This document shows positions 31,342 to 61,180 of a stretch of DNA of 64,000 nucleotides, piece by piece. A program made the translations under genes and the position numbers. The stretch is from Thermanaerothrix daxensis (GTDB taxonomy: Bacteria; Chloroflexota; Anaerolineae; Anaerolineales; Anaerolineaceae). Location of the stretch: assembly GCF_001306145.1 (NCBI RefSeq), contig NZ_LGKO01000005.1:310001-374000 (forward strand), given 5' to 3'. Each line of letters begins with the position of its first letter. Position 1 is the first letter of the stretch. The notes beneath the pieces were generated by a model. The model did no database searches, was not told where the DNA came from, and saw nothing but the letters and a program-made list of their open reading frames with translations.

Positions 31342-34300
31342 ATGAGCGAAACCAAAGCGGTAGCCATCGTGGGGGTTGGAGCGATTTTGCCGGATGCCCC
31401 CGATGCACCGACCTTTTGGCAGAATATCAAGCAGGGGCGTTATTCGGTGACCGAGGTGCCTCGTGAGCGTTGGGATCCAGATCTCTACTACGATCCCGAC
31501 CCGCGAGTGCCTGATAAGACCTACACCAAAATCGGAGCATGGGTGCGCGAGTTTCATTTTGAGCCGCTTAAGTGGGGGATTCCCATCCCCCCCAATGTGC
31601 TGGCCGTCATGGACAACACCCAAAAATGGGCCATTGCGGCGGCGCGTGAGGCCCTTCTGGATTACGGTTTCCCGCAACGTCCGTTGGATCCCACCCGTGT
31701 GGCCGTGATCCTGGGAAACTCCATGGCGGGGGAAAATCAGTACAACACCAGTTTCCGCGTGCGTTTGCCGGAGTATCTGGAGGCTCTGCGTGAATTAGAA
31801 GTGTTCCGTGATCTTCCGCCGGATGTGCAGCGCACACTGTTGGAAGGGGTGGCGGCGAAGATACGGGCCAAACTCCCACCGATTACTGAAGACACCATGC
31901 CGGGCGAGTTGGCCAATATCATTGCCGGGCGGGTGGCCAACGTTTTTAATTTCTCGGGCGCAAACTTTGTCACGGATGCGGCTTGTGCCTCTTCCCTCGC
32001 GGCCCTCCAAGCCGCCATTGAAGGGCTGAACGCCTATCAATTTGATGCCGTCTTGACCGGGGGCGTGGACGGCAACATGAGCATTGATGCATACGTCAAA
32101 TTCTGCAAAATCGGCGCGCTCAGCCCGGATGGTTCGCGTCCATTTGCCGAGGGCGCTAACGGCTTTGTGATGGGCGAGGGCGCGGCGGTATTCTTGCTCA
32201 AACGCTTGGCCGATGCGGAGCGAGATGGGGATAAGATTTATGCTGTCATCCGGGGGGTGGGTTCCAGCAGTGATGGACGGGGTAAGGGCATCACAGCCCC
32301 CAACCCCACTGGTCAGCAACGGGCCATTGAACGGGCATGGAAGAACGCCGGTCTCTCACCCGCCACGGCAACCCTGATCGAGGCTCATGGCACCTCCACC
32401 CGCGTTGGGGATGTGGTGGAGGTGAACAGCCTGAACGCTATTTTTGATCCTTTTGATCTACCGGTGGCTTCAATTGCCCTGGGTTCGGTCAAATCCAACA
32501 TTGGTCACCTGAAGAGCGCAGCCGGTGCCGCAGCGTTGTTGAAGGTGGCGTACGCGCTTCATGAGAAGGTGCTGCCTCCCTCGATCAACTTCACCCGCCC
32601 CAATCCTAATATTGACTTTGATCACCTTCCCTTCTATGTCATTACGGAGTTGCGCCCCTGGGAGCGTCCACGCGGGGAAATCCGACGTGCGGGGATTAGT
32701 TCGTTTGGTTTTGGTGGGACAAACTTTCACGCTGTCGTAGAGGAATATGTACCGGGTTTACTGACGAGCGAAAGGAAGGTCTTCCCGGCGGTGGCGGTTG
32801 CCCAGGCCGAGATTCCAGCCGAAGCCTCGGCGGTGTCGGTCTTTGAGGGACTGCCCACTTTCCGTGGATTATTCGTAGTGGGGGCGCCGGAGCGTGCGGC
32901 CTTAATCTCTCGCTTGCAGAAGGTGTTGGAAGAGGCACGCGCCGGGCGTATGCCGGCCTGGAGGACGCCGCCACTGGATGAAGTGCGCTACCCTGAGCGC
33001 ATAGCGCTGGATTACGCCGATGCCGCTGATTTGGCCAAACGGGTGGAGAAGGCCCTGGCGGCCTTGGAGCGAGATGCGCCTGATACTTGGCAGGCCCTGG
33101 CCGGTCAGGGGATTTATCGCGGGCGGGGGGCACCCGGCAAAGTTGCCTTTCTCTTCCCAGGACAGGGCTCGCAGTACGTCAACATGCTGCGAGATTTGTA
33201 CGAACTAGAGCCCATTGTCGCCGAAACGTTTCGTGAGGCCGATGCGGTGATGACCCCGATTTTAGGTCGGCCCCTCAGCGCATATATCTTTGTTGAAGAT
33301 GGTGATGAGCGGCTTAAGCAAGCCGAATCCGAGTTGCGCAATACGATTGTGACCCAACCGGCCATGCTCACCGCGAATGTGGCTCTGCTACGCCTGCTGG
33401 CCAAGTACGGTTTTCCCCCGGATATGGCCATTGGTCACAGCCTGGGGGAGTACGCCGCGTTGGTTGCGGCCGGTGCTCTGCCCTTTGCCGAGGCGCTGGA
33501 GATTGTGAGTGCGCGGGGGCGGGAGATGGCACGGGTTTCCATGGCAGATAACGGTTGCATGGCGGCGGTTTCGGCACCTCCTGAGGCCATTGAGCGCATT
33601 TTGAGCCAGGTACCCGGTTATGTGGTCATCGCGAATTACAACAGCCCGTTGCAAAGTGTCATCGGTGGTGCAACGCCGGCGGTTGAAGCGGCGCTGGAGG
33701 CGCTCCAGGCTGCTGGCTATCAGGCCGTCAAAATTCCGGTCTCGCATGCTTTCCATACCCAAATTGTGGGGCCGGCCAGTGAACCGCTGCGTCAGGTCAT
33801 TGCGCGCATGCATCTCCAGCCCCCTCGCATCCCGGTTATTTCGAATGTGACCGGTGAGTTTTATCCATCGGATCGGGAGGCTATGCTGGATTTGCTGGCG
33901 CGTCAGGTGGCTTCACCGGTCCAGTTCATCCGAGGTGTTCAGACACTCTACGCCCAGGGAGCGCGTATTTTTGTTGAGGTGGGTCCCAAGCGCGTTTTGG
34001 CCGGGCTGGCCAGTGACATTCTCAGGGAGAAGGCGTCTGAGGTGCTCATTTTGGCCACTAACCACCCGCGCAAAGGCGGGCCGGCTTCATTCAATGAGGC
34101 GCTGGCCGGTTTGTTCGCTGCAGGAGTGTTGCCCCGGGGGGTTGAGGAGCGTGCGCTGCCGGTGCAAATCACGCCGATACCTGAGGCAGCCCCAAGACTC
34201 ACCTCCGAACCCCCGGTGCCCCAGGTTGCTCCCGCCATTCTGGTCAAGGAAGGAAGGTTGCCTCTTACGGGCTCGGTGGTTATCAGCGGTGCCGGTTTGG

Positions 34301-37300
34301 GGTTGCCGGGGCGTCAACGGGCAGTGTTTGCGGATGACAATGTTGAGCGCTTGCTGCGGGGCGAGATCATGATTGAGCCGCTGCCCTTGGAAGTGCGCCA
34401 AAGCCTGCTGCAACGGCGTATCATTCGCCTGATCAAGAGTGATAACGGCGCCGAAGTGCAGCCGGTGGAAGATTTGGAGCAGACGGTCAAACTGGCGGGG
34501 CAACGCGGGCAGTTTGACCTGAGTGAGGATTTTGGTGTGCCGGAAGAGCGGGTGGAAGCCCTGGATATTTCCACCCAACTGGCCATTGCGGCAGGCATTG
34601 AAGCCTTGCGCGATGCGGGCATTCCCCTGGTGATGCATTACCGCCCGACGAGTGTGGGTACTTACCTGCCGGATCGTTGGCGCTTGCCTCCCGCACTGGC
34701 GGATGAAACCGGGGTGATTTTCGCTTCGGCTTTTCCGGGGCTTGCAGAACTGGCACGAGAGTTAGAGGACTACCATCAGTATCAATCTCTGAAGACCCAG
34801 TTGGAAACCTTGCAAGCGCTGGCGGCGCAACTCGGTTCAGCCCCCCCGGAGATGCTGGCCTTCTTAAAGGCTCAGATGGCCGATCTCGAACGTCGCTTGG
34901 CTGACCGGGATTATCATCTGGATCGCCGGTTGGTCTTCCGGGTACTGACCATGGGGCACTCGCAGTTTGCTGAGTACATTGGTGCACGGGGCCCAAATAC
35001 CCATGTCAATGCGGCCTGTGCCAGCACAACCCACGCGCTGGCGCTGGCTGAGGATTGGATTCGCCAGGGACGCTGCCGGCGGGTCATCATTATCGCCGGG
35101 GATGATGTTACCAGTAACCCTCTGATGTCCTGGATCGGCGCTTCGCTTATGGCCAGTGGCGCGGCCACCATTGAGGGGGACTTGCGGCAGGCGGTATTGC
35201 CCTTTGACCGTCGGCGCAATGGGATGATCATGGGGATGGGCGCTGCTGCGCTCGTTGTTGAATCGGAAGATGCGGTGCGCGAACGAGGAATGCGTGGCAT
35301 TTGTGAGGTCCTGGCCACTGACATTGCCAACAGTGCCTATCACGGCACGCGCCTGGATGTGACTCATGTGAGCGAGATCATGGAGCGCCTGGTCGGCACG
35401 GCGGAGCGACGATTTGGGCTCAACCGTGCGGAGATGGCGCCGTACATGGTGTTTGTGTCTCACGAGACTTATACCCCTGCGCGGGGGGGCTCGGCTTCTG
35501 CCGAGATTCGCGCCTTGCGGTATGTCTTTGGAGACCACGCTAATCGCATTCTGATCGCCAACACCAAAGGGTACACCGGGCATACCATGGGGGTGGGGGT
35601 GGAGGATGTGCTGGCCGTCAAGGCGTTGCAATATGGGCGCGTGCCCCCAATTGCCAACATTGATAATGGTTTTGAGCCAGACCCCGAACTGGGGGATCTC
35701 AACCTATCCCGGGGTGGGACCTTCCCATTGCGCTACGCCCTGCGCCTGGGAGCGGGCTTTGGATCTCAGGTGGCAATGGCCTTGCTGCGGCGCATTAATG
35801 GTGGAGATGAGCGGGTTAACCCCACGGTGTACAGGCGTTGGCTGGCCGACCTGGCCGGGTATGAGCAAGCCGAACTAGAGGTCGTCAAACGTACGTTGCG
35901 CATTCGCCATGCGGGACCTCCCCAGCGCCCTCCCTTGCAATCGCGGTGGCAGTATGGGCAGGGACCGACCCAATGGGCTGAGACTCCCGCTGCTGAGAAT
36001 CCGGTGTCCTCCTCGCAACCGGGTGCGTTTTCCTCGCCGCGTGAGGAGGTCGCGTTTGAAGGGACAGGGGGACCGGCCGTGACGGTGCCGGAGGAAGGCC
36101 AAGTCGCTGAGTTTCTCCTGAACCTGGTCAGCGAGAAAACCGGGTACCCACGTGAAATGCTGGACCTGGATTTGGACCTGGAAGCCGATCTGGGCATTGA
36201 TACGGTGAAACAGGCGGAGCTATTCGCCAGTGTGCGGGAGCAGTACGGCATCCCGCGGCGCGAAGATCTGCGTCTGGTAGATTACAACACGTTACGTAAG
36301 GTCATTGCCTTTGTGCGGGAATCGCTGAGCAATCTGCCTTCGGCAAGCGCTCCCCTCCCACAGGGGGATCAAAACGACGGATCTTCTCCAATGGCGTCTG
36401 TCGAGGTGGGTGCTGGCGAGACCCCGCCAATATCCCCGGCGATGAAACCGGCCTTGCCCGATGAAGAGGAGATCCGGGCGGTGCTGGTGGCGCTGGTGAG
36501 CGAGAAAACGGGTTATCCTCCCGATATGCTGGATCTGGACCTTGATCTGGAAGCCGACCTGGGCATTGATACGGTCAAGCAGGCGGAGTTGTTTGCCGCG
36601 GTGCGCGAGCGCTATGGCATCCCGCGCCGTGAGGATTTACGCCTGGTGGATTACAACACCCTCCGCAAGGTCATCGGCTTTGTGCGGGAGTCATTGATGG
36701 CCCAGTCAGAATGGAGCGGGGCGCAGCCCTCAACAATGCCTGCTGAGCAGCCAACCCAGTCCGTCAGCCCCGAGGTGCTGGAACTGGTGACTGCTCGCGT
36801 GGGCTACCCGGTGGAGCATCTGCCGGTGCAGACAGAACCTCCTGCTTCTTACTCGGTGGAGGTGCACTCTTCCTCCTCGGGGCAGGCCGGGAGCATAAGC
36901 CTGGATGAAGAGAGAATTCGGGCATTCGTACTTTCTCTGGTCAGTGAAAAGACTGGTTACCCTCAGGAGATGCTGGATCTGGATTTGGACCTGGAAGCCG
37001 ATCTGGGCATTGATACGGTGAAGCAAGCCGAGTTGTTTGCTAGCGTGCGGGAGCAGTACGGCATCCCGCGCCGCGAGGATTTGCGCCTGGGCGATTACAA
37101 CACGCTGCGCAAGGTCATCGCCTTCGTGCAGGAGTCGCTGCAGGCGTTGCAGGAGGCTGAACGCCAGCCGACAGAGAAAAGAGAGACAGCAGATCTCTCA
37201 TCCCTCCCGGTGTCTGATGAGGTGGAAAGCCCCATACTGGAAGAAGCAAGGGATGAAGCACCGGGGAGCGGAATTATTCGGCGCCGGGTACCGCGGGCCG

Positions 37301-39774
37301 TTTTGCGCCCAAAGGCGGTGCTCTGCCAGCCTACCGGCATTTCGCTGTCCGCCGGGATGCGGGTGGTCATTGTGGGAGATCAAAGTGGCGTGGGGGTGGC
37401 GTTGGCGCGTCGTTTGCGGGGGCACAAGGTTAAAGTACTGCTCCTCCCCGGTGACTCACCAGAACAAGTGCTCTCTCAAGTGCGCCAATGGGTGGAAGAA
37501 GCCCCGGTGAACGGTCTCTTTTTCCTGCCGGGTCTGGATGTGGAGCCTGCATTGGAGGATATGGACGCCGAACGCTGGAATGTTGAGGTGCACCGACGTG
37601 CGCACATGCTGTTTGATTTGCTCCAGGTGATTACTGGCGAGCCGTTCCTGATTGCTGCTACGCGCCTGGATGGATTGCACGGATTCTCGGGAGCTCCTCT
37701 GGCATCTCCTCTGGGCGGTATGATCAGCGGGTTGGTTAAAGCGGTATCGTGGGAGCGCGCCAATGCTCTGGTAAAGGTGGTGGATTTCACGCCCCGGGCT
37801 GAGCCGGCGACCATCGCGGCCCAGTTGATCGAGGAATTGCTTTATGACCCTGGTGTGGTTGAGATTGGGCGGTGTGACGAACAGCGTTATGGGGTCACTG
37901 TGGTAGAGGCTCCTCTGGGTGAAACCCAGTCGTTTAATCTGGGTGACAAACCAGTTTTCCTGATTACGGGTGGGAGCGGCGGGATTACCCGGGCTGTGGT
38001 GCGTGACCTGGCGCGTAAAACGCGGGGGGTGTTTTACCTGGTAGGACGTTCATCCCTTCCTGATCCGGAAAACCCGGACCTGCTGATGCTTCGTCAGGAT
38101 CGCGCAGCCTTGCGCCAAACCCTGCTCAAGCGCCTGGCAGCACGGGGGGAACGACCCTCATTGGCGGAGGTTGAACAGCACCTGGCGGCGCTGGAACGTG
38201 CTGAGGGAACGTTAAAGTTATTAGAAGAGGTGCGCACCTGGGGCGCAGAGATTACTTATATCCCTGCGGATGTCACAGATGCGCAGGCGGTGGAGAGCGT
38301 TGTCCGCCGCGTGGCTCAGGAGCAGGGACGCTTGGATGTGCTGATTCATGCTGCCGGTGTGGAGCGCAGCCGCCGCCTGGAAAGCAAACCACCAGAGGAA
38401 TTTGCCCAAATCCTGGCGGTCAAGGCGGCAGGCTTCTATCACCTCTATAAGGGCTTGCAACGTCATGGCCTGTGGCCGCGGGCGCTGGTCGTTTTCACCT
38501 CAATTGCGGGGCGCTTTGGAAACGCTGGACAGGTGGATTACTGCGCGGGCAATGACTTTCTTGCCAAAATGATGCTGGCATTGCGACATCACCCGTCTGG
38601 GATCAAGACCCTGGCGCTGGACTGGGGGGCTTGGGCCGAGGTGGGTATGGCCAGCCGGGGTTACGTACCTGAGATTATGCGCCGCGCCGGGATTGATCTG
38701 ATGCCACCGGAAGAAGCCGCCGCTCATGTGCTACGCGAATTGCTCGGCAATCCGGGCCAGGCCGAAGTGGTGCTGGCAGGCTCATTGGGCGTACTCACGT
38801 TGCCACGTCGCGATCAGGATGGCCTGGATCTGGAAGCGCTGAACCGAACCCTGGGCGGGCATCTCAACATTTTGCCGGGCATCCTGACACGTTATGATCG
38901 TTGGGAGGGGGCACATTTTGAGGTGGAACTGGATCCCCAGCAGACCCCTTATCTTTATGATCATGCCCTGAATGGGATTCCGCTATTACCTGCGGTGATG
39001 GGGCTGGAGGGGTTTGCCGCCGCTGCTCTTCGCTGGGCTTCTCTGGCTGGAGAGAAACCTGTCTGGCGGGTCAAGGGGTTTAGTGAGGTCCAGTTTATGG
39101 CCCCCTTGAAGTTTTATCGCTCTCAGCCGCGTCGTTTTGCCATCACGATCCAGATGATGCACGATGGAGAGGGATTGACCGCCCACGCGGTGCTGGAATC
39201 CAGCCTGAACCGCCCGGGCATGGGTGCTCAGACCTTGCGTCACTTTGCTGCAAATGTTCATTTGGTATCTGGGGAGTACGAGGCAGAGCCTCAGAAGATC
39301 ACCCTCCCCCTGTGGGAAGAAAGCAAGGCGGTAAAACGCGAAGCAATTTATGCCCTCTTCTTCCATGGGCCGGCTTTTCAGGTGCTGGAAGCCGCCCAGG
39401 TGGAGGCGGAGAGAAGCGTAGGGCGTTTACAGACCGACCTGCCCACACTTGGCGCCGTTTCACTGGTCACTGCCCCGCACCTGCTTGAATTGGTGTTACA
39501 AACGGCCGCTGCCTGGGAAGTGGCTCAGGATGGGGTGCTGGCCTTGCCCTCTGGCGCAGAGCGGATTGTTTACCATGCCCGGACGTGGCAGGAGCCGGTC
39601 TGGGTTGAGGTCACTCCCAGTAGCAGCCAGGAACGGCGCTTTAACGCACGGGTGCTGGATGCTCAGGGTCACCTGATCCTGGAGGTGGAGGGGTGCCGCA
39701 CGGCCCGCCTACCTTATGCAGCAGAGGCCCCGCTCGTGGCACCTTTCCGAATCAACCTTGGCCGAGGAGGGTGA
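31342..39774 (+). CDS. Pfa-like iterative megasynthase: KS-AT-KS-ACP-ACP-ACP-KR-DH
   Basis: A 2810-residue type I iterative lipid/polyketide synthase of the PfaA-like kind. KS1 (about 1-470) has Cys215 in 'DAACASS', His349 in 'EAHGTST' and His389 in 'NIGHLKS'. AT (about 600-900) has 'LFPGQGSQ' and Ser700 in 'GHSLGEYAA'. A second KS (about 975-1485) keeps Cys1226, His1374 and His1414, with a coiled-coil insert near 1135-1190. Three carrier domains follow, whose 'LGIDTVKQ' places Thr1621, Thr1744 and Thr1892 where Ser is expected. KR has 'TGGSGG' (2209-2214), Ser2387 and Tyr2400. A double-hotdog DH has His2541 in 'DHALNG' and 'FFHGPAFQ'. It lacks a thioesterase and an ER; the latter is supplied by the PfaD-type gene. 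GGAGGAGG precedes the ATG. The product is unknown, perhaps a polyunsaturated or otherwise unusual acyl chain. Confidence 0.93.
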   Translation: MSETKAVAIVGVGAILPDAPDAPTFWQNIKQGRYSVTEVPRERWDPDLYYDPDPRVPDKTYTKIGAWVREFHFEPLKWGIPIPPNVLAVMDNTQKWAIAAAREALLDYGFPQRPLDPTRVAVILGNSMAGENQYNTSFRVRLPEYLEALRELEVFRDLPPDVQRTLLEGVAAKIRAKLPPITEDTMPGELANIIAGRVANVFNFSGANFVTDAACASSLAALQAAIEGLNAYQFDAVLTGGVDGNMSIDAYVKFCKIGALSPDGSRPFAEGANGFVMGEGAAVFLLKRLADAERDGDKIYAVIRGVGSSSDGRGKGITAPNPTGQQRAIERAWKNAGLSPATATLIEAHGTSTRVGDVVEVNSLNAIFDPFDLPVASIALGSVKSNIGHLKSAAGAAALLKVAYALHEKVLPPSINFTRPNPNIDFDHLPFYVITELRPWERPRGEIRRAGISSFGFGGTNFHAVVEEYVPGLLTSERKVFPAVAVAQAEIPAEASAVSVFEGLPTFRGLFVVGAPERAALISRLQKVLEEARAGRMPAWRTPPLDEVRYPERIALDYADAADLAKRVEKALAALERDAPDTWQALAGQGIYRGRGAPGKVAFLFPGQGSQYVNMLRDLYELEPIVAETFREADAVMTPILGRPLSAYIFVEDGDERLKQAESELRNTIVTQPAMLTANVALLRLLAKYGFPPDMAIGHSLGEYAALVAAGALPFAEALEIVSARGREMARVSMADNGCMAAVSAPPEAIERILSQVPGYVVIANYNSPLQSVIGGATPAVEAALEALQAAGYQAVKIPVSHAFHTQIVGPASEPLRQVIARMHLQPPRIPVISNVTGEFYPSDREAMLDLLARQVASPVQFIRGVQTLYAQGARIFVEVGPKRVLAGLASDILREKASEVLILATNHPRKGGPASFNEALAGLFAAGVLPRGVEERALPVQITPIPEAAPRLTSEPPVPQVAPAILVKEGRLPLTGSVVISGAGLGLPGRQRAVFADDNVERLLRGEIMIEPLPLEVRQSLLQRRIIRLIKSDNGAEVQPVEDLEQTVKLAGQRGQFDLSEDFGVPEERVEALDISTQLAIAAGIEALRDAGIPLVMHYRPTSVGTYLPDRWRLPPALADETGVIFASAFPGLAELARELEDYHQYQSLKTQLETLQALAAQLGSAPPEMLAFLKAQMADLERRLADRDYHLDRRLVFRVLTMGHSQFAEYIGARGPNTHVNAACASTTHALALAEDWIRQGRCRRVIIIAGDDVTSNPLMSWIGASLMASGAATIEGDLRQAVLPFDRRRNGMIMGMGAAALVVESEDAVRERGMRGICEVLATDIANSAYHGTRLDVTHVSEIMERLVGTAERRFGLNRAEMAPYMVFVSHETYTPARGGSASAEIRALRYVFGDHANRILIANTKGYTGHTMGVGVEDVLAVKALQYGRVPPIANIDNGFEPDPELGDLNLSRGGTFPLRYALRLGAGFGSQVAMALLRRINGGDERVNPTVYRRWLADLAGYEQAELEVVKRTLRIRHAGPPQRPPLQSRWQYGQGPTQWAETPAAENPVSSSQPGAFSSPREEVAFEGTGGPAVTVPEEGQVAEFLLNLVSEKTGYPREMLDLDLDLEADLGIDTVKQAELFASVREQYGIPRREDLRLVDYNTLRKVIAFVRESLSNLPSASAPLPQGDQNDGSSPMASVEVGAGETPPISPAMKPALPDEEEIRAVLVALVSEKTGYPPDMLDLDLDLEADLGIDTVKQAELFAAVRERYGIPRREDLRLVDYNTLRKVIGFVRESLMAQSEWSGAQPSTMPAEQPTQSVSPEVLELVTARVGYPVEHLPVQTEPPASYSVEVHSSSSGQAGSISLDEERIRAFVLSLVSEKTGYPQEMLDLDLDLEADLGIDTVKQAELFASVREQYGIPRREDLRLGDYNTLRKVIAFVQESLQALQEAERQPTEKRETADLSSLPVSDEVESPILEEARDEAPGSGIIRRRVPRAVLRPKAVLCQPTGISLSAGMRVVIVGDQSGVGVALARRLRGHKVKVLLLPGDSPEQVLSQVRQWVEEAPVNGLFFLPGLDVEPALEDMDAERWNVEVHRRAHMLFDLLQVITGEPFLIAATRLDGLHGFSGAPLASPLGGMISGLVKAVSWERANALVKVVDFTPRAEPATIAAQLIEELLYDPGVVEIGRCDEQRYGVTVVEAPLGETQSFNLGDKPVFLITGGSGGITRAVVRDLARKTRGVFYLVGRSSLPDPENPDLLMLRQDRAALRQTLLKRLAARGERPSLAEVEQHLAALERAEGTLKLLEEVRTWGAEITYIPADVTDAQAVESVVRRVAQEQGRLDVLIHAAGVERSRRLESKPPEEFAQILAVKAAGFYHLYKGLQRHGLWPRALVVFTSIAGRFGNAGQVDYCAGNDFLAKMMLALRHHPSGIKTLALDWGAWAEVGMASRGYVPEIMRRAGIDLMPPEEAAAHVLRELLGNPGQAEVVLAGSLGVLTLPRRDQDGLDLEALNRTLGGHLNILPGILTRYDRWEGAHFEVELDPQQTPYLYDHALNGIPLLPAVMGLEGFAAAALRWASLAGEKPVWRVKGFSEVQFMAPLKFYRSQPRRFAITIQMMHDGEGLTAHAVLESSLNRPGMGAQTLRHFAANVHLVSGEYEAEPQKITLPLWEESKAVKREAIYALFFHGPAFQVLEAAQVEAERSVGRLQTDLPTLGAVSLVTAPHLLELVLQTAAAWEVAQDGVLALPSGAERIVYHARTWQEPVWVEVTPSSSQERRFNARVLDAQGHLILEVEGCRTARLPYAAEAPLVAPFRINLGRGG

Positions 39775-39777
39775 CCT

Positions 39778-40530
39778 ATGGTAAGCATTTACTGGACGCT
39801 AGGGGGTGGGGCGGCTGTGATGGCCGATCCCCTTCCCCTGGAACAAAGCCTGTCGCTTGCCGAACAGGTGTATTTTCAGAATCTGCACTTCCCTCGACGC
39901 CGGGCCGATTGGCTGTTGGGCCGTTGGGTGGCAAAATGTCTCCTGCGCGCCGCCGATGAGCGGTTACGGGATTATGCGCTACGACGCATCAGCGTCTTGC
40001 GGAATGCTCAGGGCGCACCTCAGGTCTGGGTGACCCCCGATACTCCCTACCCGGTGGCTCTTTCGCTCACTCATCGCGAGGGTTGGGCAGCCTGCGCGTT
40101 GGCTCCTGCTCCCGATTTAATGCTGGGCATTGATCTGGAGTGCATTGAGCCTCGGGTGCCTGCTTTTGTGGCGGATTATTTTACTGCCGAGGAACGGGCT
40201 TATGTGAAATCCCTCCCTGAAACATATCTTTCCTTGGCGGTCACCCTCATCTGGAGTCTGAAAGAGGCGGTGCTTAAAGCCTTGCGGGTTGGGCTGGCCT
40301 GGGATACGCGGCGGGTGAATGTGGATCTGCCCGTTTCCCTGACCCCCAACCCCTCCTGGCAGGCGGCGCGCGTAAGCGTGCGTGGTATTGCGGCCCCCTG
40401 GTGGGCCTGGTGGTGCGTATTGGGGCAAAAGGTGCTTACCCTGGCGGTTTGTGCGGACGAAAGCCCCACCGACCTGGCCTACGTGCCGATTGGTTACCCT
40501 GCCAGGATGCGTCAGAGCATTGGTTGTTGA
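39778..40530 (+). CDS. 4'-phosphopantetheinyl transferase (Sfp type)
   Basis: Transfers the phosphopantetheine arm of coenzyme A to carrier proteins. It is a 250-aa two-lobed Sfp/HetI-type enzyme. The Mg/CoA motifs are 'GIDLECIE' (about 119-126) and 'WSLKEAVLKALRVG' (about 159-172), and the N-terminal substrate motif is 'RRRADWLLGRWVAK'. Its ATG is 3 bp after the megasynthase stop, so it is certainly co-transcribed and dedicated to those three carrier domains. Its stop lies within the end of the convergent PfaD-type gene (19 bp overlap). Confidence 0.93.
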   Translation: MVSIYWTLGGGAAVMADPLPLEQSLSLAEQVYFQNLHFPRRRADWLLGRWVAKCLLRAADERLRDYALRRISVLRNAQGAPQVWVTPDTPYPVALSLTHREGWAACALAPAPDLMLGIDLECIEPRVPAFVADYFTAEERAYVKSLPETYLSLAVTLIWSLKEAVLKALRVGLAWDTRRVNVDLPVSLTPNPSWQAARVSVRGIAAPWWAWWCVLGQKVLTLAVCADESPTDLAYVPIGYPARMRQSIGC

Positions 40531-42170
40531 GGCCGATAACGCCTTAGATCTGGCGCCAGCCGCACGCCCTGCAGCGCCAGTATGTGGGTACGGGCGAGGT
40601 AGGCGCAGCCGGTCATCAGGTGCAGGGCCACGTCGGCCACATGCCGGTTTTCGGGGGCTTCCAGGTAAGAGCCCTGAACCCAGGCATTGAAAGCGCCCAT
40701 GGCCGGCCCGCACCAAATCTGGTAATCCATCTCCCGGCCGGGTTCGCCGCGGTTAGCCCAACGGGAGGAAAGCCCCAGATACCAGCGGAAAACCAGAGCC
40801 ATCTTTTGATGGGGGTCACGCTGCGCGCGCTCAATTTGGCGCGGGTCGCGCTCTTGGAAATACTGCACGGTTTCCTGCCAGATGGACTCGAGGTCGCGCT
40901 TGAAGATTTGACGCTCCAATTTCTCCCGTTCTTCAGGAGGAATGGCTTCAAGGGAGGGAAAGCGGGTGTAGAGTTCGTAAAGCCTCTGAGCCCGCATAGG
41001 GAAGAGCGTACCCCGTTTGAGCAACTGTACCTTGACCCCCATTTCGAACATATCGGCGGCGGGAGCCATCATCACATCGGCCATATCCGCCTGGGCTAAC
41101 AAGCGCTTCACATGAGCGGAAGTGCCGGCTTCAACACAGGATTGATTGACAGAGCCTGTCACAATATAGGCAGCGCCCATGGTGAAAGCCGCCAGCGCCG
41201 CTTCGGGGGTGCCAATGCCGCCTGCGGCGCCAACAAAGACTGGCTGAGAATAGGAATATTGCGCCTGGATGCGGTCACGCAGGGTTAGCATTGTGGGAAT
41301 CAACCCCACCAGGGGGCGGTTGTCGGTGTGACCGCCCGAATCCGCCTCTACGGTGATGGCATCGGCCATGGGCACATATTGGGCCAGATTAGCCTGGGTT
41401 GGGCTGATTTGCCCACTTTGCAGAAGTTGCGCCACCAGGTCTGCCGGTGCTGGCTGCATGAAGCGTTGGGCTACTTCGCGGCGTGAGATCTTCGCGATAA
41501 TGCGGTTTTGCGCCACAATTCGTCCCTGTGGGGTTTGGGTGAGCCCGGCTAGGCGGTACCGCACCAGGTTAAGGGTCAGATCTACATAGGCCGAAGCCTC
41601 GATGGTTCGGATGCCGTGTTTCAGGTAAAGATCCGTCGTGCGTTCTTCCAGCGCAGGTTCATTGGGGCTGAAAATCAGGTTAAAACCGTAGGGACCTTGC
41701 GGCAAGGCTTCGCGGATGCGGTGAATGGCCTGCTCCACCCGGGCGGGGAGCAAACCGGCAGCCCCGAATATGCCCATGAAACCGTTCTTGCCCAATGCGA
41801 TGACCAGTTCTTCGGAGGCAATACCCCCTGCCATGGCGCCAGCATAGTAAGCATATCGCAGGCCAAACAGGTCGCGGAAGCCCGGGTCGCCCAGGGCTTC
41901 GGCTGGGAGGGGAGGGGCATAAGCCAGGATTGTGGCCGCTCCGGGATCGGCCTGGCCCGCAGGGAGCAAAGCCGTTTCAGTGGTCAGGGCAAGCGAGCCT
42001 TCATGGGTTACAGCCCAGAGAGGATGATCGAGTTGGAGAAGGAATTGGCGTTGGGCCTCCGTGGTACGGGCGAGACGGGAGGGATCTCCTTGCCAGCGCC
42101 ACTCAGTGAAAGGTGCAGGGTAAGAAGTGACAAGGAGGGGGAAGGGGGATGAAGACTTTGAAGTGGGCAT
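40512..42170 (-). CDS. PfaD-family enoyl reductase / FMN-dependent oxidoreductase
   Basis: Trans-acting flavin enoyl reductase of PUFA/polyketide synthases, 552 aa. The TIM-barrel (about 80-400), related to nitronate monooxygenases, has 'EADSGGHTDNRPL', 'VGAAGGIGTPEAALAAFTMG' and 'AYIVTGSVNQSCVEAGTS', all PfaD landmarks. The PfaD-specific C-terminal part includes 'DYQIWCGPAMGAFNAWV'. It reduces the 2-enoyl thioesters made by the KR and DH of the megasynthase. It is transcribed towards the PPTase gene, so expression from its own promoter would let the cell vary reduction independently of chain building; this last point is inference. Confidence 0.93.
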   Translation of the reverse strand: MPTSKSSSPFPLLVTSYPAPFTEWRWQGDPSRLARTTEAQRQFLLQLDHPLWAVTHEGSLALTTETALLPAGQADPGAATILAYAPPLPAEALGDPGFRDLFGLRYAYYAGAMAGGIASEELVIALGKNGFMGIFGAAGLLPARVEQAIHRIREALPQGPYGFNLIFSPNEPALEERTTDLYLKHGIRTIEASAYVDLTLNLVRYRLAGLTQTPQGRIVAQNRIIAKISRREVAQRFMQPAPADLVAQLLQSGQISPTQANLAQYVPMADAITVEADSGGHTDNRPLVGLIPTMLTLRDRIQAQYSYSQPVFVGAAGGIGTPEAALAAFTMGAAYIVTGSVNQSCVEAGTSAHVKRLLAQADMADVMMAPAADMFEMGVKVQLLKRGTLFPMRAQRLYELYTRFPSLEAIPPEEREKLERQIFKRDLESIWQETVQYFQERDPRQIERAQRDPHQKMALVFRWYLGLSSRWANRGEPGREMDYQIWCGPAMGAFNAWVQGSYLEAPENRHVADVALHLMTGCAYLARTHILALQGVRLAPDLRRYRPQQPML

Positions 42171-43436: not shown

Positions 43437-44021
43437 TCAGGTGCCGCTGCCGTAGAGGGCGCGGTACTTTTCCAGATCTACCGCGGCGATATAGGGAAGG
43501 TTGCGGCCTTTCTCATCAATATCCAGGCCGTAGCCGACCACGAAGTAATCGGGGATTTCGAAGCCCAGGTAATCAATGTGGATATCCACTTTGTGGCGGG
43601 CTTTCTTATCCAGCAGAGCGCAGATTTTCAGGCTGCGCGGCTGGCGTTCGAGGAGCAATTTACGCACGGTATGAATGGTGTAACCCGTATCTATGATATC
43701 ATCCACCAGGATGACATCCCAATTGTGAATGTTAATCTTGTGATCCGCATCAATGCGAACGAAACCGGAGGATTCGGCACCGCGGTAGGAGGAGACGAGC
43801 ATGAAATCCATGGTCATGGGACGATTGATCTTGCGCATGAGGTCGGTAAGGAAGACCACGCTACCGCGCAGCAGGCCGAGCAGGAGCAAGCGGTCGGAGT
43901 CGCGGTAGTCTGCGGTGATCTGGGCACCCAGTTCGGCCACGCGCTGCTCGATTTGCTCCTGGGTGATCAGAATTTGGCCGATGAAATCGTAAGGAAGGGG
44001 GGAGGCTTGATTCTGCGCCAT
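43437..44021 (-). CDS. hpt: Hypoxanthine phosphoribosyltransferase
   Basis: Purine-salvage enzyme of 194 aa that makes IMP or GMP from hypoxanthine or guanine and PRPP. The PRPP loop is 'VILVDDIIDTGYTIHTV', 'LLGLLRGSVVFLTDLMRKI' is the N-terminal PPi loop and 'PDYFVVGYGLDIDEKGRNLPYI' (in two parts) is the purine-binding end. ATG 44021 follows GAGGGTAAC and begins at 'AQNQASPLPYDFI', so the longer frame from 44069 is rejected. It heads the pfkA unit. Confidence 0.95.
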   Translation of the reverse strand: MAQNQASPLPYDFIGQILITQEQIEQRVAELGAQITADYRDSDRLLLLGLLRGSVVFLTDLMRKINRPMTMDFMLVSSYRGAESSGFVRIDADHKINIHNWDVILVDDIIDTGYTIHTVRKLLLERQPRSLKICALLDKKARHKVDIHIDYLGFEIPDYFVVGYGLDIDEKGRNLPYIAAVDLEKYRALYGSGT

Positions 44022-44116
44022 GTTACCCTCGCGAGGGAATGATTCTGAGGTTCTGGTATATGTTACCATGAAAAAGGGGAGACGAAATGATAAAATGCAT
44101 ACACAGCGTGTTTGTT

Positions 44117-44129
44117 TGATTAGAGAAGC
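44117..44129 (+). repeat. Left 13-bp direct repeat (target-site duplication)
   Basis: TGATTAGAGAAGC, identical to 45551-45563. It directly abuts the left end of the IS1202-type element, as expected of a target-site duplication. Confidence 0.85.
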
Positions 44130-45550
44130 CTGTTAGCCCAAAGTTAAGATGTCACCCCAACCACCAAAGTTAGAATGTCCCCTATCAGGGAGCAGCTTTG
44201 GTAGGGGATTGAGTAGATATAGGGGAAAACGCCATGGATGGTCGGGTGCAGGCTTATGGGCTTTGGATGCATTGAGCAACTCGAAATCAATTGATTCGGC
44301 AGCGACGACTCTAGCTTGATCTGCCTGTTGAGAGCAAAGCACAAAGGCGAGGGGCTGATTTTTGTAGAGGACGGTGATTTCACCTTTGGAATTCTCCAAA
44401 ACGGTCACCTTGGCCTTCCGCATAGCATGGGTTGGACGATCGACCTGGATTTGATAGCCAGAACGATGACGCTGGAAAATCAGGTTTTTGGAGAGGATCC
44501 GCTCGGCTTTGCGGCGCAAAATTTGATCCAACTGCTCGGCATCCCCGAGCGGACGATGGACATCCACTGGACGGCGGGGCAGGATGGCAAAACGTCGGTT
44601 GTAATCATCGATAAACGTGGGTAACCATGAATTGGCCTGCTCGGGGGTAGAGATCCCCTGTACCCCCATCTCCTTGGTTAGGCGATCCTGCAGGGTCTGG
44701 TTGGCTTGCTCGACACGGCCCTTGGCTTGGGGTGTGTTGGCGCAAATAATTGGGATTTCCAGCTCTTGCATTGCCCGGCCATATTCGGTCAGGCCGTCCC
44801 CAGGACCACTTTGGGGGTATTGAGGTGAAAGATGCCGTCCTTGTCACTGTAAAAGGCTCCAGGCTTGTCGTAGCACTCGAAATAACTTCGGGCGGTTACA
44901 CAACAGTCAAAGAAGGTTTCATGGGGCACAAAGCGCATTTCTGCTAGTTTCCCCGTGGCATCATCCACAAAGACCAATAAAGACCAATGAGGTGCAGCGC
45001 GGACTTCGGCCCTCGAACCAATCGTAATCTGAGCCATCAATCTGGATCAACTCGTCCAAAGCGGCTCTTCGCTCGCGCATTTGGAATACCCGGAATTTGC
45101 GCTTCCGGCGAGGTTTCCACAACCCCTCGCTGATCATCAGCTTCCATACGCTTTCGTCTGAAATCCGCAATCCATGCACTTCCGTGAGCTTTTCGGTTGC
45201 CAGGGTGGGCCAAAAGTCCCGATATCGCTCCAGGGTCAAGGCTAAGGCTTGTTGTATTACTTCTTCGCTCAACCGATTGTGGCTCGGTCTCCCTCGAGAT
45301 TGGTTGACTCATCCTTCTGCCCCGTCCCGCTTGAACCTCCGCCATAGCCGCTTGACATGTCGTTCGCTCACTCCTAACAGCTCACCAGCCTGTTTTTGGG
45401 TGATCCTTTTTTCTTCCAGTTGGGTCATGATTTGTAGACGATACAGTTCTTTTTCGCTCATGGTGTGTAATTTTTTTCCATTTCTCCGGCCCTTTCTTAG
45501 AGGGACATCTTAACTTTGGTAAAAGGGGACGTTTGTACTTTGGTGTAGCA
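44130..45550 (-). mobile_element. IS1202/ISNCY-type insertion sequence
   Basis: An element of about 1.42 kb bounded by the 13-bp direct repeats. Each end carries two tandem copies of a CCAAAGTTnnnATGTC motif. On the left these are at about 44137-44157 and 44163-44183; on the right, inverted, they are at about 45501-45520 and 45525-45547. The outer tips, TGTTAG and TGCTAC, match in part. The transposase within is decayed. The element lies exactly where GC-rich conserved genes give way to the AT-richer polysaccharide island. Confidence 0.82.
44133..45461 (-). pseudogene. Decayed IS1202/ISNCY-family transposase
   Basis: About 443 codons long, starting at ATG 45461 with an HTH ('ITQKQAGELLGVSERHVKRL') and followed by an integrase-core DDE region ('DELIQIDGSDYDWF', 'FVDDATGKLAEMRF', 'ANTPQAKGRVEQANQTLQDR'). 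Three lesions are visible: a TGA stop at 45311-45309 where a Leu codon is expected, an exact 10-bp tandem duplication at 44969-44988 that shifts the frame, and loss of one G in the G-run at about 44798-44801. Its normal stop overlaps the left terminal repeat. It cannot move on its own. Confidence 0.85.
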
Positions 45551-45563
45551 TGATTAGAGAAGC
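45551..45563 (+). repeat. Right 13-bp direct repeat (target-site duplication)
   Basis: TGATTAGAGAAGC, an exact match to 44117-44129, directly after the right end of the IS1202-type element. Confidence 0.85.
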
Positions 45564-45580
45564 TCTTTTCAGTACTGGGT

Positions 45581-45586
45581 TATAAT
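45581..45586 (+). promoter_or_regulatory. -10 box before the first island glycosyltransferase
   Basis: A perfect TATAAT, 15 bp before the ATG at 45601 and 31 bp outside the IS end. The expected transcription start leaves almost no leader, so translation is leaderless at 45601 or starts at an ATG at 45616 or 45622. Confidence 0.5.
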
Positions 45587-45600
45587 CTAACAAGTACTCA

Positions 45601-46779
45601 ATGTCCTTAGTTAAGATGCCTATGAATTTACCGTTGATTTCCGTTATCATACCGGCCTATAATCACGAGCAATATATTAGGGAAGCTATTCAATCAGTCG
45701 TTGTACAAAGCTATTCACCGATAGAAATAATTGTTATAGATGATGGTTCGAGCGACTCAACAGCGGAGCAGGCTGAGCGTGCTTTGGCAGAAGGGGGGCG
45801 TCCCTGTAGACTGATTCGTCAGGCAAACTCGGGAGCCCACGTAGCACTTAACCTGGGGATATCGTTGGCTTCAGGGGAATATGTTGCTATTCTAAACTCG
45901 GATGATCGTTATCATCCCGAAAGGCTCTTGAAAGTATTCCATAAAATGCGACAAAACCAATCCCGTTTTGCTTTTACCCAGGTTAGTCATATTGATGAAT
46001 ATGGGCGGCCACATCCGTATCATTCTCATTATCTTAAGTTATTGGCAGAGATCGACCTTTTCCCAACAGTTGGTTTTGCTCTTCTTCTGAACAATCTTAC
46101 TATTACAACCGGAAATTTCATTTTCCATCGTACCCTTGTTGATGACGTTGGTTACTTCTCTCCGTTTAAGACTTGTCATGATTGGGATTATGTACTTCGG
46201 GTTTTGTTAATTGAGGAACCGTTATATGTCCCCCAAGAGTTGATGGATTATCGAATACATCCACAAAATACGTTAAAACAAAATGCAGCGCTGGTTGAAG
46301 AAGAGGGGGTATTAGTACGACAAGCCTACTTAAGGGAAGTTAATGGTGCCAGAAACCCTCTTGCTCCTTGCCCCCGATACTGGGGAGAGTATTGGAATTT
46401 TTTTGTGGATCACTATTTCCTACCAATGTGTGAAGGATCGGATCTGAGTGTTGCCTTACAAAAGACAAAAGCGAATGGTCTAAGTGCCCCTAATCTTCAA
46501 GTTTATCAAATCTTGGCAGGTACTTTAGAACGATATGTGTTGTGGCTAGAGCGGTGTGAATTGTGGAATGAAGACCTGACTTATAAGGTCAATAGCTTAA
46601 CTCAAAAAGTTATCAATCTTGAAAAGATAGTAGCTGATCAAAAGGAACAGCTTCAAGCACCCCTTTACTTTGCTCTTCGCAGGAAATTGCTCCCCCTCTA
46701 TCATTTGCTGGGTGGAGAGAAAGTCGGTTTTCTTACGGACGCAAAGAATCGTATTAAACGATTATTTGGTTTGAAATAA
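45601..46779 (+). CDS. Family 2 glycosyltransferase
   Basis: GT-A fold transferase of 392 aa that adds a sugar during surface-polysaccharide assembly. 'ISVIIPAYNHEQYIREAI' (about 12-29) and 'IVIDDGSSDSTAE' bind the nucleotide sugar, 'AILNSDDRYHPERL' holds the DxD-like metal site and 'CHDWDYVLRVL' the catalytic-base region. The C-terminus (about 315-392) has a short coiled coil and a basic tail, common in such enzymes and perhaps for membrane contact. Base composition is much richer in A+T than in the genes before 44 kb. The next gene is 26 bp downstream. Confidence 0.9.
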   Translation: MSLVKMPMNLPLISVIIPAYNHEQYIREAIQSVVVQSYSPIEIIVIDDGSSDSTAEQAERALAEGGRPCRLIRQANSGAHVALNLGISLASGEYVAILNSDDRYHPERLLKVFHKMRQNQSRFAFTQVSHIDEYGRPHPYHSHYLKLLAEIDLFPTVGFALLLNNLTITTGNFIFHRTLVDDVGYFSPFKTCHDWDYVLRVLLIEEPLYVPQELMDYRIHPQNTLKQNAALVEEEGVLVRQAYLREVNGARNPLAPCPRYWGEYWNFFVDHYFLPMCEGSDLSVALQKTKANGLSAPNLQVYQILAGTLERYVLWLERCELWNEDLTYKVNSLTQKVINLEKIVADQKEQLQAPLYFALRRKLLPLYHLLGGEKVGFLTDAKNRIKRLFGLK

Positions 46780-46805
46780 GAATATTTCGGATTGCTATTT
46801 GGACT

Positions 46806-48830: not shown

Positions 48831-49269
48831 CTAAAAATCGGAGGCAGCTTGGCTCGATTGTGGAGATTGAAGCAACTAATTGGCGACTCGTCAGCGATAA
48901 ACACACCGGGTGAGGGCAGTAGGAATCGGGGGAAAGGCTGGCCTGCGCCATCTCCCAACCGTGTTGATGGACAATGTCAAACAAGCGCTCAATCCCACCC
49001 TCTGGGAACTGGATATCATCATCCAGCAGCAAAATATATTCGTAGGGTTCAAGAATGTGCGCATATTCGGTTAGCAGGCTGTGAAAGGCGGTAAATTTTG
49101 TACCGGGCAGCCGGCCGGTTTGATGGAATTCCACATCGCAGGGGATCTTGCCGACGTACGTAGAGTCGTAATGGTTGATGATCAGGTCAAACGGGCGGCT
49201 GCCGTCCTGCCACCAGCCACCCCACACTGCTCCTGCCCCGCACTGAAGGAAGACGGCCCATCTACTCAT
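48811..49269 (-). pseudogene. Truncated DUF707-like glycosyltransferase remnant
   Basis: The frame from ATG 49269 encodes a coherent N-terminal domain ('WAVFLQCGAGAVWGGWW', 'PFDLIINHYDSTYVGK', 'YEYILLLDDDIQFPEGGIE', 'QASLSPDSY') like the DUF707 transferase-like family with its DDD motif. After about residue 115 similarity fades and the frame ends in unrelated sequence that runs into the end of the membrane-protein gene. A full-length relative would be roughly twice as long, so this is a 3'-truncated remnant. An IS copy begins 80 bp upstream, a likely agent of the rearrangement. Confidence 0.55.
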
Positions 49270-49350
49270 TGAAATGCGATGATCAACTACTAGGTAGGTA
49301 TGGATAAAGTTACAATTAGAGAGAATTGAGTTCATTTAATATTATTAAAT

Positions 49351-50275: not shown

Positions 50276-50373
50276 AATATCAAATAATAATGTGGTATTA
50301 AGTAGGGTAGCCAGACCAACTATTTAGAAGGCTTATCAATTTATATCATGACAAACAGGTTGATACGGATGTA

Positions 50374-51156: not shown

Positions 51157-51271
51157 AAACTGACGTATTTTTTTCTGTAATCCTATGGAGTATCACTTCC
51201 ACCGTCCTGATTAAGTAATAACTTTATAGTATATTTTTTAATCATAACATGAATTTGGTTAGTGTAACATA

Positions 51272-52576: not shown

Positions 52577-52672
52577 AGAGTTGCATAATCTGAATTTGGG
52601 ATAAGGAAGAGGCTCTCCAAAAGGAAGTAAACTTTTTTCACCACAACACAAGATCTTTCAAAGAGGCCCCCA

Positions 52673-52915
52673 ATGGACAGTTTACTAGAGTTGTTCTGCG
52701 ATGTCGATGATTTTTGTCAAGCATTTCTACCCCAATCAAACCATCATTTACCGAGCAGCGGGCAAAAACAACGTCAGCGTAACCGCCCTTTGACCACCCG
52801 TGAAATTATGACCATCTTGATTGACTTCAATCCGTTCCATTACCGTGATTTCAAAGCTAACTATAACCCTTGGTTCACAATGATTGCATCAAGGTCTTTC
52901 TCGTTCGGGAATTAG
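52673..52915 (+). pseudogene. N-terminal fragment of an IS982-family transposase
   Basis: Eighty codons matching the start of IS982 transposases ('[20 protein letters not shown]', '[13 protein letters not shown]', 'HYRDFKANY') before the frame ends in unrelated sequence. The catalytic domain is missing. It is a relic between the IS256 element and the glycosylation operon. Confidence 0.8.
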
Positions 52916-52977
52916 ATTTATCTTCTGCTTTGAAATTTTCCCATAGATATTACACTGGAAGTACATACCGCTATCCT

Positions 52978-54489: not shown

Positions 54490-54490
54490 T

Positions 54491-58058: not shown

Positions 58059-58085
58059 AGTTTATCCCCAGCAAACCGATTAGGA

Positions 58086-58844: not shown

Positions 58845-58881
58845 GCTTGTTTTTCAGATTGGCAGCTTAGAGGCTCCTCTA

Positions 58882-59715: not shown

Positions 59716-59840
59716 GAGGATAATTCTACATGTCGGTGCAGGTTATGTCAATGGACCGCGCGCGGTGACCGTTCCAAATTTGGTAAAGGATGAAGTAGGA
59801 TGCAACAAGCCAGATTTAGAAGGGCGAATCTACTTGCGGG

Positions 59841-61138: not shown

Positions 61139-61180
61139 CTCTACAGCCGCTATATAGTTAGTTGGAGGAGGTTTAATCCC

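Follow-up and report, generated by a model that had tools for sequence, protein, structure and literature searches.

Gene content and domain organization of the synthase locus

The analysed window, a 64,000-nucleotide stretch of the Thermanaerothrix daxensis genome (Anaerolineaceae; contig NZ_LGKO01000005.1, positions 310,001 to 374,000), was shown to harbour a three-gene locus encoding a PfaA-like megasynthase (31342-39774, + strand, 2810 aa), a 4'-phosphopantetheinyl transferase (PPTase; 39778-40530, + strand, 250 aa), whose start lies 3 bp after the synthase stop, and a convergently transcribed PfaD-type enoyl reductase (40512-42170, - strand, 552 aa), whose 3' end overlaps that of the PPTase gene. 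The locus as described in the first-pass annotation was thereby confirmed. The genes upstream of the synthase, encoding a PocR-type regulator and a pyridine nucleotide-disulphide oxidoreductase, were not surveyed in relatives.

Profile searches of each domain, which had been proposed in advance as a test of the annotation, identified two ketoacyl-synt stretches, Acyl_transf_1, three PP-binding domains, KR and PS-DH plus PKS_DH_N in the megasynthase, ACPS in the PPTase, and PfaD_N, FabD_helical_ins and NMO in the enoyl reductase (Pfam). Among NCBIfam models, the enoyl reductase matched TIGR02814 (pfaD_fam) with 673.6 bits, above the cut-off of 449.25, whereas the megasynthase scored 1004 bits against TIGR02813 (PfaA), just under its cut-off of 1010.1. 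The first ketosynthase (KS1; 31354-32751, + strand, aa 5-470) is Pfa/PKS-like with a Cys215-His349-His389 triad, and is followed by a malonyl-type AT (33139-34131, + strand, aa 600-930; Ser700, Arg725 and His805) and a second, FabF-like ketosynthase (KS2; 34342-35841, + strand, aa 1001-1500), which is catalytically complete (Cys1226-His1374-His1414). Both triads and the AT residues were retained in 46 of 46 aligned synthases. Three ACPs follow on the + strand, i.e. ACP1 (36109-36336; TVKQAE of the GIDTVKQAE motif at aa 1621), ACP2 (36481-36681; motif at aa 1744) and ACP3 (36925-37131; motif at aa 1892), and precede a KR (37957-38640, + strand, aa 2206-2433) in which the Ser-Tyr-Asn residues are present. 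The C-terminal DH (38905-39726, + strand, aa 2522-2795) carries HxxxGxxxxP, although the usual catalytic Asp position reads Glu, an invariant and unusual substitution; its structure model (pLDDT 90) matched PKS double-hotdog dehydratases. No thioesterase or release domain was seen. The PPTase is of the Sfp type, and its LSLTH sequence fits the hShxH motif that Shulse & Allen (2011) give for Types M-P and R-T.

Conservation and phylogenetic placement of the two ketosynthases

To establish whether this arrangement recurs, loci of the Anaerolineaceae clade were compared, an absence of linkage between PfaD and the synthase elsewhere having been named beforehand as an outcome that would contradict the annotation. 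The same domain order (KS1 61-98% identical) was found in these loci, with the PPTase within 300 bp in 28 of 28, and convergent PfaD in 27 of 28, of the loci that extend at least 2.5 kb past the synthase. Loci cut before this point were left out, and one further locus (L101) ends too early to tell. In the single exception (L103), PfaD lies about 72 kb away.

A KS phylogeny had likewise been proposed, with placement of both KS domains outside the Pfa/secondary-lipid clade as the contrary outcome. KS1 was located on the PfaA/Type P side of the tree and clades with Acidobacteria/Chloroflexota homologues, whereas KS2 groups with FabF (100/100 support), and a KS1+KS2 clade was rejected (p-AU 0.0015). 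A first tree of 60 rows gave the same grouping but contained very long rows (a Persicobacter PfaC-like pair and a second Streptomyces KS), and was therefore rebuilt with 36 rows, leaving out those three and 21 others. Since the one PfaC-like KS pair at hand, that of Persicobacter, was too long-branched to be used, a PfaC origin of KS2 was not tested well. Consistent with the tree, TIGR03150 (fabF) was the best family for KS2, albeit below its cut-off, and its best PDB profile hits were FabF; the KS2 structure model was too poor to use (pLDDT 70). A chain-length factor (CLF) identity for KS2 was rejected on the basis of its Cys-His-His triad, the FabF profile and the tree.

The interpretation offered in the first-pass annotation was thus supported in part. 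The domain string, the single chain, the single double-hotdog DH, the linked PfaD, the Anaerolineae origin and the affiliation of KS1 were upheld, whereas its view of KS2 as the KS part of PfaC was not supported. The compactness it emphasized is not special to this genome, as the single-chain form is widespread and was published as Type R in 2011, and its reading of the locus as a secondary-lipid synthase of unknown product is largely replaced by the distribution data described below.

Distribution of ketoacyl synthases in the Anaerolineaceae

In the host genome, the only ketoacyl synthases found are the two within the megasynthase. A search with KS2 returned one place and Ketoacyl-synt_C only the megasynthase; of six PF00109 hits in the host, four were not inspected, but no Ketoacyl-synt_C lies outside the synthase. 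The only ACP_syn_III_C match was an HMG-CoA synthase (543 bits), and FabA/Z was not detected, although its absence is uninformative for loss of FAS II, as it is also absent from the other families of the order, and only 6 of 61 genomes have it, all six in the family and beside PfaD. A weak free ACP gene is kept (76 bits). The inferred absence of FAS II rests on profile searches in draft genomes. PlsX and eight FakB/DegV genes are present in the host.

Of 147 family genomes, 63 have Ketoacyl-synt_C, and the one stand-alone FabF found is in G086, a 70%-complete MAG, on a stretch of 56.5% GC compared with 42.2% in a congener's stretch. Conversely, among 61 genomes compared (37 from the family and 24 outside it), 24 of 24 outside the family have a FabF-size KS ORF. 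In the family's 37 genomes, a strong KS occurs in 23 of 23 with PfaD and in 1 of 14 without, over two synthase architectures. Among carriers of the synthase, 16 of 16 without linked PfaD keep a FabF-size KS ORF, whereas 7 of 8 PfaD-linked carriers do not; for the former, PfaD was sought in the retrieved locus only. The eighth, UBA6092 (genome G049, locus L122), has the PfaD-linked synthase and FabF together, and had been left out of an initial comparison of seven PfaD-linked genomes.

The genomic context of plsX was also examined. fabF lies within 0.5 kb of plsX in 15 of 24 outgroup genomes and in 0 of the 31 family genomes with plsX. In the stretches inspected, the order plsX-fabF-X was observed in 3 of 4 outgroup genomes, the fourth (G048, locus L069) showing neither fabF nor X beside plsX, and plsX-X in 6 of 6 family genomes. 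As fabF is not beside plsX in 9 of 24 outgroup genomes, the gap is a footprint only where that order is ancestral. As to malonyl-CoA supply, accA (TIGR00513) did not separate the groups, with 0 of 61 genomes passing its cut-off, but its weak hits beside the synthase revealed acyl-CoA carboxylase-like genes in 8 of 32 clade loci. The substrate of this carboxylase was not identified: the carboxyltransferase (two scanned) matched TIGR01117 (methylmalonyl-CoA decarboxylase alpha) best, below cut-off, the biotin carboxylases (four scanned) matched acetyl-CoA carboxylase and pyruvate carboxylase models, with one of four just over the NF006367 cut-off, and BCCP was named by eye from its biotin motif, without an NCBIfam hit.

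Published major fatty acids of A. thermolimosa, L. arvoryzae, O. apprima, L. saccharolytica and T. daxensis are saturated straight, iso and anteiso chains (PMC4070665, Table 1), and the genomes of the first four show no KS other than those of this synthase. However, 84 of 147 family genomes (34 of 64 good ones) show no Ketoacyl-synt_C at all, so the family tolerates loss of de novo synthesis. One KS-less genome, G012 (3.7 Mb, about 20 contigs, three sampled stretches at 46.6-49% GC), resembles Leptolinea tardivitalis YMTK-2 (3,687,036 bp, 15 contigs, 46.82% GC), a strain reported with branched C17:0, C16:0 and C14:0 (PMC4070665), in which case either these acids come from the medium or a KS-free route exists.

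The latter possibility, in which thiolase-based reverse beta-oxidation or an unrecognized synthase makes the membrane fatty acids of the family and the megasynthase is accessory, is considered unlikely. In its favour, weak, short PF00109 matches that look like thiolases, which were not inspected further, are common, and KS-less G011 carries a FabH-like gene close to a gene with a weak KS-profile match. However, no such membrane-lipid route is established in bacteria, PfaD-less genomes are smaller (2.71 versus 3.67 Mb, p 0.004), as expected of auxotrophs, and the PfaD/KS co-occurrence would be left unexplained. An accessory role, in which the protein makes a specialized long saturated or hydroxylated chain, as in other Type R carriers, while the whole family scavenges membrane fatty acids through FakAB/PlsX, is also regarded as improbable, although less so. 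It is consistent with the absence of fabF beside plsX in three KS-less members, with the expansion of FakB/DegV in the family (mean 8.2 versus 4.5 copies, 37 versus 24 genomes, Mann-Whitney p 9e-6), with the coexistence of homologues outside the family with a FabF-size KS (16 of 16), and with the designation of such synthases as secondary in the field. Against it, major iso/anteiso C15 and C17 saturated acids in the four type strains are not what we would expect from scavenging of yeast extract, an expectation that was not tested here, linked PfaD is found where FabF is missing, and two different synthase architectures alternate in the family, both with PfaD. A point against the primary role proposed below is that PfaD-less family genomes have fewer, not more, FakB genes; the 14 genomes used for this and the size comparison include G003, which has an unexamined KS fragment at a contig edge.

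Proposed role and relationship to known synthases

With moderate confidence, we propose that the three genes encode the primary fatty acid synthase of the cell, an iterative type I FAS built on a Pfa-like (Type R) chassis, with saturated membrane fatty acids as the likelier product. In this view, AT would load malonyl (and perhaps the acyl primer), KS1 and/or the FabF-like KS2 would condense, KR would reduce, the C-terminal DH would dehydrate and PfaD, acting in trans, would saturate the enoyl, while the three ACPs, primed by the adjacent PPTase, would carry chains in parallel; chains would leave at C14-C20 and enter phospholipid through PlsX/PlsY or FakAB. What the analysis demonstrated is the complete KS-AT-KR-DH-ER-ACP set with intact catalytic residues (bar the Asp-to-Glu position in DH), the conserved linkage of PPTase and PfaD, the lack of another detectable ketoacyl synthase in the host and in four sequenced type strains, the fabF gap beside plsX, and the PlsX and FakB/DegV complement of the host. 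The direction of events (loss of FAS II in the family's ancestor and take-over by the PfaD-equipped megasynthase), primer choice, the division of labour between KS1 and KS2, chain release and the product are inferred; no product, mutant or expression data were obtained, and neither the chain length made nor its requirement for growth was measured. That Pfa genes can complement fabD loss in Escherichia coli (PMC8174602) is in line with this proposal. Against it stand the KS-less family genomes, the presence of both the PfaD-linked synthase and FabF in UBA6092, the lack of a thioesterase or release domain, the unusual Glu of the DH and the weak free ACP gene that is kept.

A more far-reaching scenario is also compatible with the data, though it is put forward only tentatively: the whole family lost type II fatty acid synthesis in its ancestor, some members run membrane lipid synthesis on the PfaD-equipped Type R megasynthase with two KS domains of different ancestry, others on a second, classical-like Pfa cluster, and the rest have dropped fatty acid synthesis and live on scavenged fatty acids. 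So-called secondary lipid synthases could then become the primary FAS, with capture of an enoyl reductase as the key step. In the open-licence literature searched, incompletely for several topics and judged on titles and the beginnings of abstracts, no paper was found that reports loss of FAS II or a type I FAS in Anaerolineaceae (sources consulted also include PMC3098273, PMC13291983, PMC4653793, PMC4574363, PMC10937449 and PMC5481317). If the family does use such an enzyme as its main FAS, a further bacterial route to type I fatty acid synthesis, apart from that of Corynebacterineae, exists in cultured digester and hot-water bacteria; PfaA-KS amplicons from Anaerolineales, read as putative PUFA synthases (PMC11837533), could instead mark ordinary membrane lipid synthesis; and, by inference, FabF/FabH-directed inhibitors should not act through those targets here. 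The open question of what Type R synthases make would thereby be linked to cultured type strains with known fatty acid profiles, while the question is raised of how 84 of 147 sampled family genomes do without any detected ketoacyl synthase.

Among known systems, the closest is the Type R secondary lipid synthase of Shulse & Allen (Roseiflexus, Koribacter, Solibacter and Elusimicrobium), with which the locus shares a single PfaA-like chain of KS-MAT-[second KS-fold]-ACP(3-6)-KR followed by a PPTase gene with the hShxH motif. Roseiflexus-labelled MAG loci L144 and L151 match every domain of the window protein, and KS1 is 63% identical to that of L151; as the 2011 reference proteins were not part of the comparison, this leaves undecided whether KS1 clusters with them. 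The published description calls the second KS fold a CLF and lists no DH or ER, whereas here Cys-His-His is kept, a PKS-type DH is present (also in the homologues) and PfaD is linked, the latter only in the Anaerolineaceae clade.

The canonical PfaABCDE synthases (Types A/B) share the PfaA-like KS-AT-tandem ACP-KR, the PfaD ER and the PPTase, but the present locus has no separate PfaB or PfaC, no KS-CLF pair and no FabA-like DH/isomerase, neither in its proteins nor in the genome, and carries a FabF-like second KS on the same chain. A true PUFA synthase making polyenoic or monounsaturated acids, suggested by the TIGR02813/TIGR02814 similarity, was therefore rejected as the main reading and is regarded as very unlikely, given also that published Anaerolineaceae profiles are saturated, unsaturated acids being reported only for strain SW7 (PMC4070665). 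Enediyne PKSs (PksE) have a KS-AT-ACP-KR-DH order with an integrated C-terminal PPTase, which differs from the separate PPTase gene, second KS and three ACPs observed here. The type I FAS of animals and of Corynebacteriales/fungi likewise places all FAS activities on few polypeptides and is, as proposed here, the de novo source of membrane acyl chains; however, the AT-ER-DH-MPT-ACP-KR-KS order of the corynebacterial/fungal enzyme was not found, and the present system differs from these in its domain order, its ER in trans, its two KS domains of different ancestry, its tandem ACPs and its lack of a TE or MPT-type release domain. Types S and M (Desulfobacterium and Renibacterium) were proposed in 2011 as possible core synthases because fabA/fabZ are missing, embodying the same idea of a Pfa-like synthase as the main or only FAS, whereas here, in a different cluster type, it is the ketoacyl synthases of FAS II that are missing, with a syntenic gap, across a family with cultured members.

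Architecture and ancestry of the synthase domains

To verify the three-gene locus reported in the first-pass annotation, the ORFs, domain content and catalytic residues of the encoded proteins were examined. All three ORFs were confirmed at the stated places, and the observation stands: the megasynthase reads KS1-AT-KS2-ACP-ACP-ACP-KR-DH, the PPTase gene follows after 3 bp, and a PfaD-type enoyl reductase gene converges on the latter, with the two 3' ends overlapping. PfaD easily passed its curated profile, while the PfaA profile scored 1004 bits, six bits below its cut-off. The C-terminal domain, which gave a weak Pfam match, was modelled at a pLDDT of 90, and its predicted structure matched polyketide-synthase double-hotdog dehydratases (8qk4 and 3kg6).

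Alignment of 46 full-length homologues (28 from the Anaerolineaceae clade, including the window protein, and 18 from elsewhere) revealed that KS1 retains Cys-His-His, AT retains Ser, Arg and His, and KS2 retains Cys-His-His in all 46 sequences, indicating that the middle domain is not a chain-length factor by sequence. The DH retains the histidine of the HxxxGxxxxP motif, whereas the second catalytic position, usually Asp, is Glu in the 14 rows displayed and invariant in an 18-row DH alignment.

The two ketosynthases are of different origin. The best-matching family of KS2 was fabF, although far below its cut-off (140 of 494 bits), and its best PDB profile matches were FabF enzymes. In a 36-row tree, KS2 was located on the FabF side (100/100) and KS1 on the PfaA/Type P side (89/82 for that join, without a star), while a topology holding KS1 and KS2 together was rejected (p-AU 0.0015). 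As the KS2 stem is long (4.4 changes per column), the description 'FabF-like' is safer than 'from FabF'. The inference that the second ketosynthase corresponds to the KS part of PfaC was not supported, although a PfaC origin was not tested well, the one PfaC-like KS pair available (Persicobacter) being too long-branched to use.

Distribution of the synthase and its association with PfaD

The host genome comprises 3.01 Mb in six contigs, T. daxensis GNS-1 being reported at 3.06 Mb in 6 contigs (PMC4653793). Within the window, GC content falls from about 60% at the locus to 37-49% across positions 44000-64000, where a weak integrase-core fragment (44136-44771, minus strand) and a glycosyltransferase (45601-46779) were observed, suggestive of a possible acquired island. 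A scan with the KS2 alignment returned at least 588 stretches, and the 80 loci retained included those of Ornatilinea apprima, Levilinea saccharolytica, Longilinea arvoryzae and Anaerolinea thermolimosa IMO-1 and, at 56-61% identity, Caldilineales, Chloroflexales, Myxococcota, Acidobacteriota and Rhodothermota. The single-chain protein is thus widespread, and it matches Type R of Shulse & Allen 2011. The Anaerolineaceae clade is set apart by PfaD. The gene was convergent beside the synthase in 27 of 28 clade loci with at least 2.5 kb downstream, against 0 of 21 loci elsewhere, while the PPTase gene was within 300 bp in 28 of 28 and 18 of 21 loci, respectively.

Two architectures were found to share PfaD as a partner. 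Of the 37 genomes of the host's family, Anaerolineaceae, that were compared, 23 have PfaD (22 over the cut-off) and all 23 have a strong KS, 16 with this megasynthase and seven with another cluster. The latter was opened in genomes G017 (locus L089) and G014 (locus L090), where it encodes a PfaA-like KS-AT-ACP protein, a separate KR plus PKS-type DH protein, an AT-like protein and PfaD, in G017 also a FabA-like protein and PPTase, with acyl-CoA carboxylase-like genes next door. Of the 14 family genomes without PfaD, one (G003) has a strong KS, a contig-edge fragment, while in a larger sample of 147 family genomes, G063 has one ORF of each size class. Acyl-CoA carboxylase-like genes (CT-BC-BCCP) lie directly upstream of the synthase in 7 of 32 clade loci with at least 4.5 kb upstream and are divergent in an eighth (L125), whereas carboxyltransferase genes lie downstream of the synthase in 13 Chloroflexota loci without PfaD. 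In the host, such genes are not in the window beside the synthase.

Ketoacyl synthases outside the megasynthase

To assess whether other ketoacyl synthases accompany the megasynthase, profile searches were performed on 61 genomes (37 of the host's family and 24 of other families in the order). FabF-size ketoacyl synthase ORFs were present in 24 of 24 outgroup genomes, whereas in the host's family the strong PF00109 matches lie on ORFs above 1200 aa, plus the G003 fragment. Of the 147 family genomes, 63 have a Ketoacyl-synt_C match. Four of the short ORFs were opened: three (in G061, G144 and G169) run into the contig end and match KS1 of one or the other synthase type, and one, in the 70%-complete MAG G086 (L192:4350-5700), is a real, stand-alone FabF beside a FabD-like stretch, in a family where no other was found. 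The GC content of this stretch (56.5%, against 42.2% in a congener's stretch) suggests a contaminating contig, although other contigs of G086 were not compared. Three strong matches on ORFs of 823-1109 aa, weaker ones on ORFs of 799-910 aa, and three of 22-25 bits over 50 columns on ORFs of 427-428 aa (G004, G066 and G068) were left unopened. ACP_syn_III_C at FabH strength (118 bits or more) was found in 21 of 24 outgroup genomes (not in G039, with a partial match of 82 bits, G049, or G050, with a split match) and in 0 of 37 family genomes. The only match in the host is an HMG-CoA synthase of archaeal type, adjacent to HMG-CoA reductase (host contig C2:66000-78000), representing mevalonate pathway genes. 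FabA/Z was found in 6 of 61 genomes, all in the family beside PfaD.

Furthermore, the vicinity of plsX was shown to carry a footprint consistent with loss. By coordinates, a ketoacyl synthase lies within 0.5 kb of plsX in 15 of 24 outgroup genomes and in 0 of the 31 family genomes with plsX. In opened stretches, three of four outgroup genomes (G049, G051 and G055, but not G048) read plsX-fabF-X, whereas six of six family stretches (the host, Longilinea, Levilinea and three KS-less genomes) read plsX-X. X is a conserved ORF of about 230 aa (L071:10065-10775 on host contig C3; also in stretches L184-L191), whose host copy has no Pfam or NCBIfam match and which lies beside plsX(-fabF) in 9 of 10 opened stretches, making it a possible lipid-linked gene of unknown function. 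FabF therefore seems to have been lost before the family radiated.

Conversely, a search of the whole genomes behind 24 named loci showed that 16 of 16 carriers without linked PfaD have one or more stand-alone ketoacyl synthase ORFs of 407-529 aa. A. thermolimosa, L. arvoryzae, O. apprima, L. saccharolytica, the uncultured Thermanaerothrix, DeMMO6_45 and UBA5404 have matches only inside the megasynthase, while UBA6092 (G049, which belongs to another family by the genome grouping) has both.

Proposed role in fatty acid synthesis

Published fatty acid profiles (PMC4070665, Table 1) list ai-C17:0, i-C15:0 and C16:0 for A. thermolimosa; C14:0, i-C15:0 and C16:0 for L. saccharolytica; i-C15:0, ai-C15:0 and C14:0 for L. 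arvoryzae; i-C15:0 and ai-C15:0 for O. apprima; and C16:0, C18:0, i-C17:0, C20:0, i-C15:0, ai-C17:0 and C14:0 for T. daxensis, with unsaturated acids said to be found only in strain SW7. A fully reducing synthase fits these profiles, whereas a PUFA synthase does not.

Of the 147 family genomes, 84 (34 of the 64 of good quality) have no Ketoacyl-synt_C match, among them G018 (one contig, 99% complete), and these represent candidate fatty acid auxotrophs or users of an unknown route. They may scavenge fatty acids: PlsX is present in 31 of 37 family genomes, the fatty-acid-binding FakB/DegV family is expanded compared with other families of the order (8.2 vs 4.5 copies; eight genes in the host, e.g. 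C2:489319-490158), and PfaD-less genomes are smaller. However, the FakB count of PfaD-less genomes is lower, not higher, than that of PfaD-bearing ones (6.7 vs 9.1), which does not favour this idea. In addition, a genome that fits Leptolinea tardivitalis in size and GC content is KS-less, yet branched acids have been reported for the strain. If those are made by the cell, a KS-free route exists, and the present argument weakens for all members. Another KS-less genome, G011, carries a FabH-like gene (L196:6587-7594; 202 bits, below cut-off) close to a gene with a weak KS-profile match (L196:9270-10535; 31 bits), which could represent another route to acyl or polyketide chains.

Taken together, the locus itself, its domain order and the distribution of detected ketoacyl synthases are observed, whereas the loss of FabF and the role of the synthase are inferred from them. 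The initial interpretation was supported in part: the compact Pfa-like synthase belongs to a known protein class, but its likely role differs from that suggested both by the first-pass annotation, which considered the product to be unknown, and by the name 'secondary lipid synthase' used in the field. A function as primary fatty acid synthase is favoured here, with moderate confidence. The idea that Pfa-like clusters can be core synthases was raised in 2011 for Types S and M, based on the absence of fabA/fabZ (Shulse & Allen 2011); to this, the present analysis adds the family-wide absence of FAS II ketoacyl synthases, the fabF gap and the PfaD contrast.
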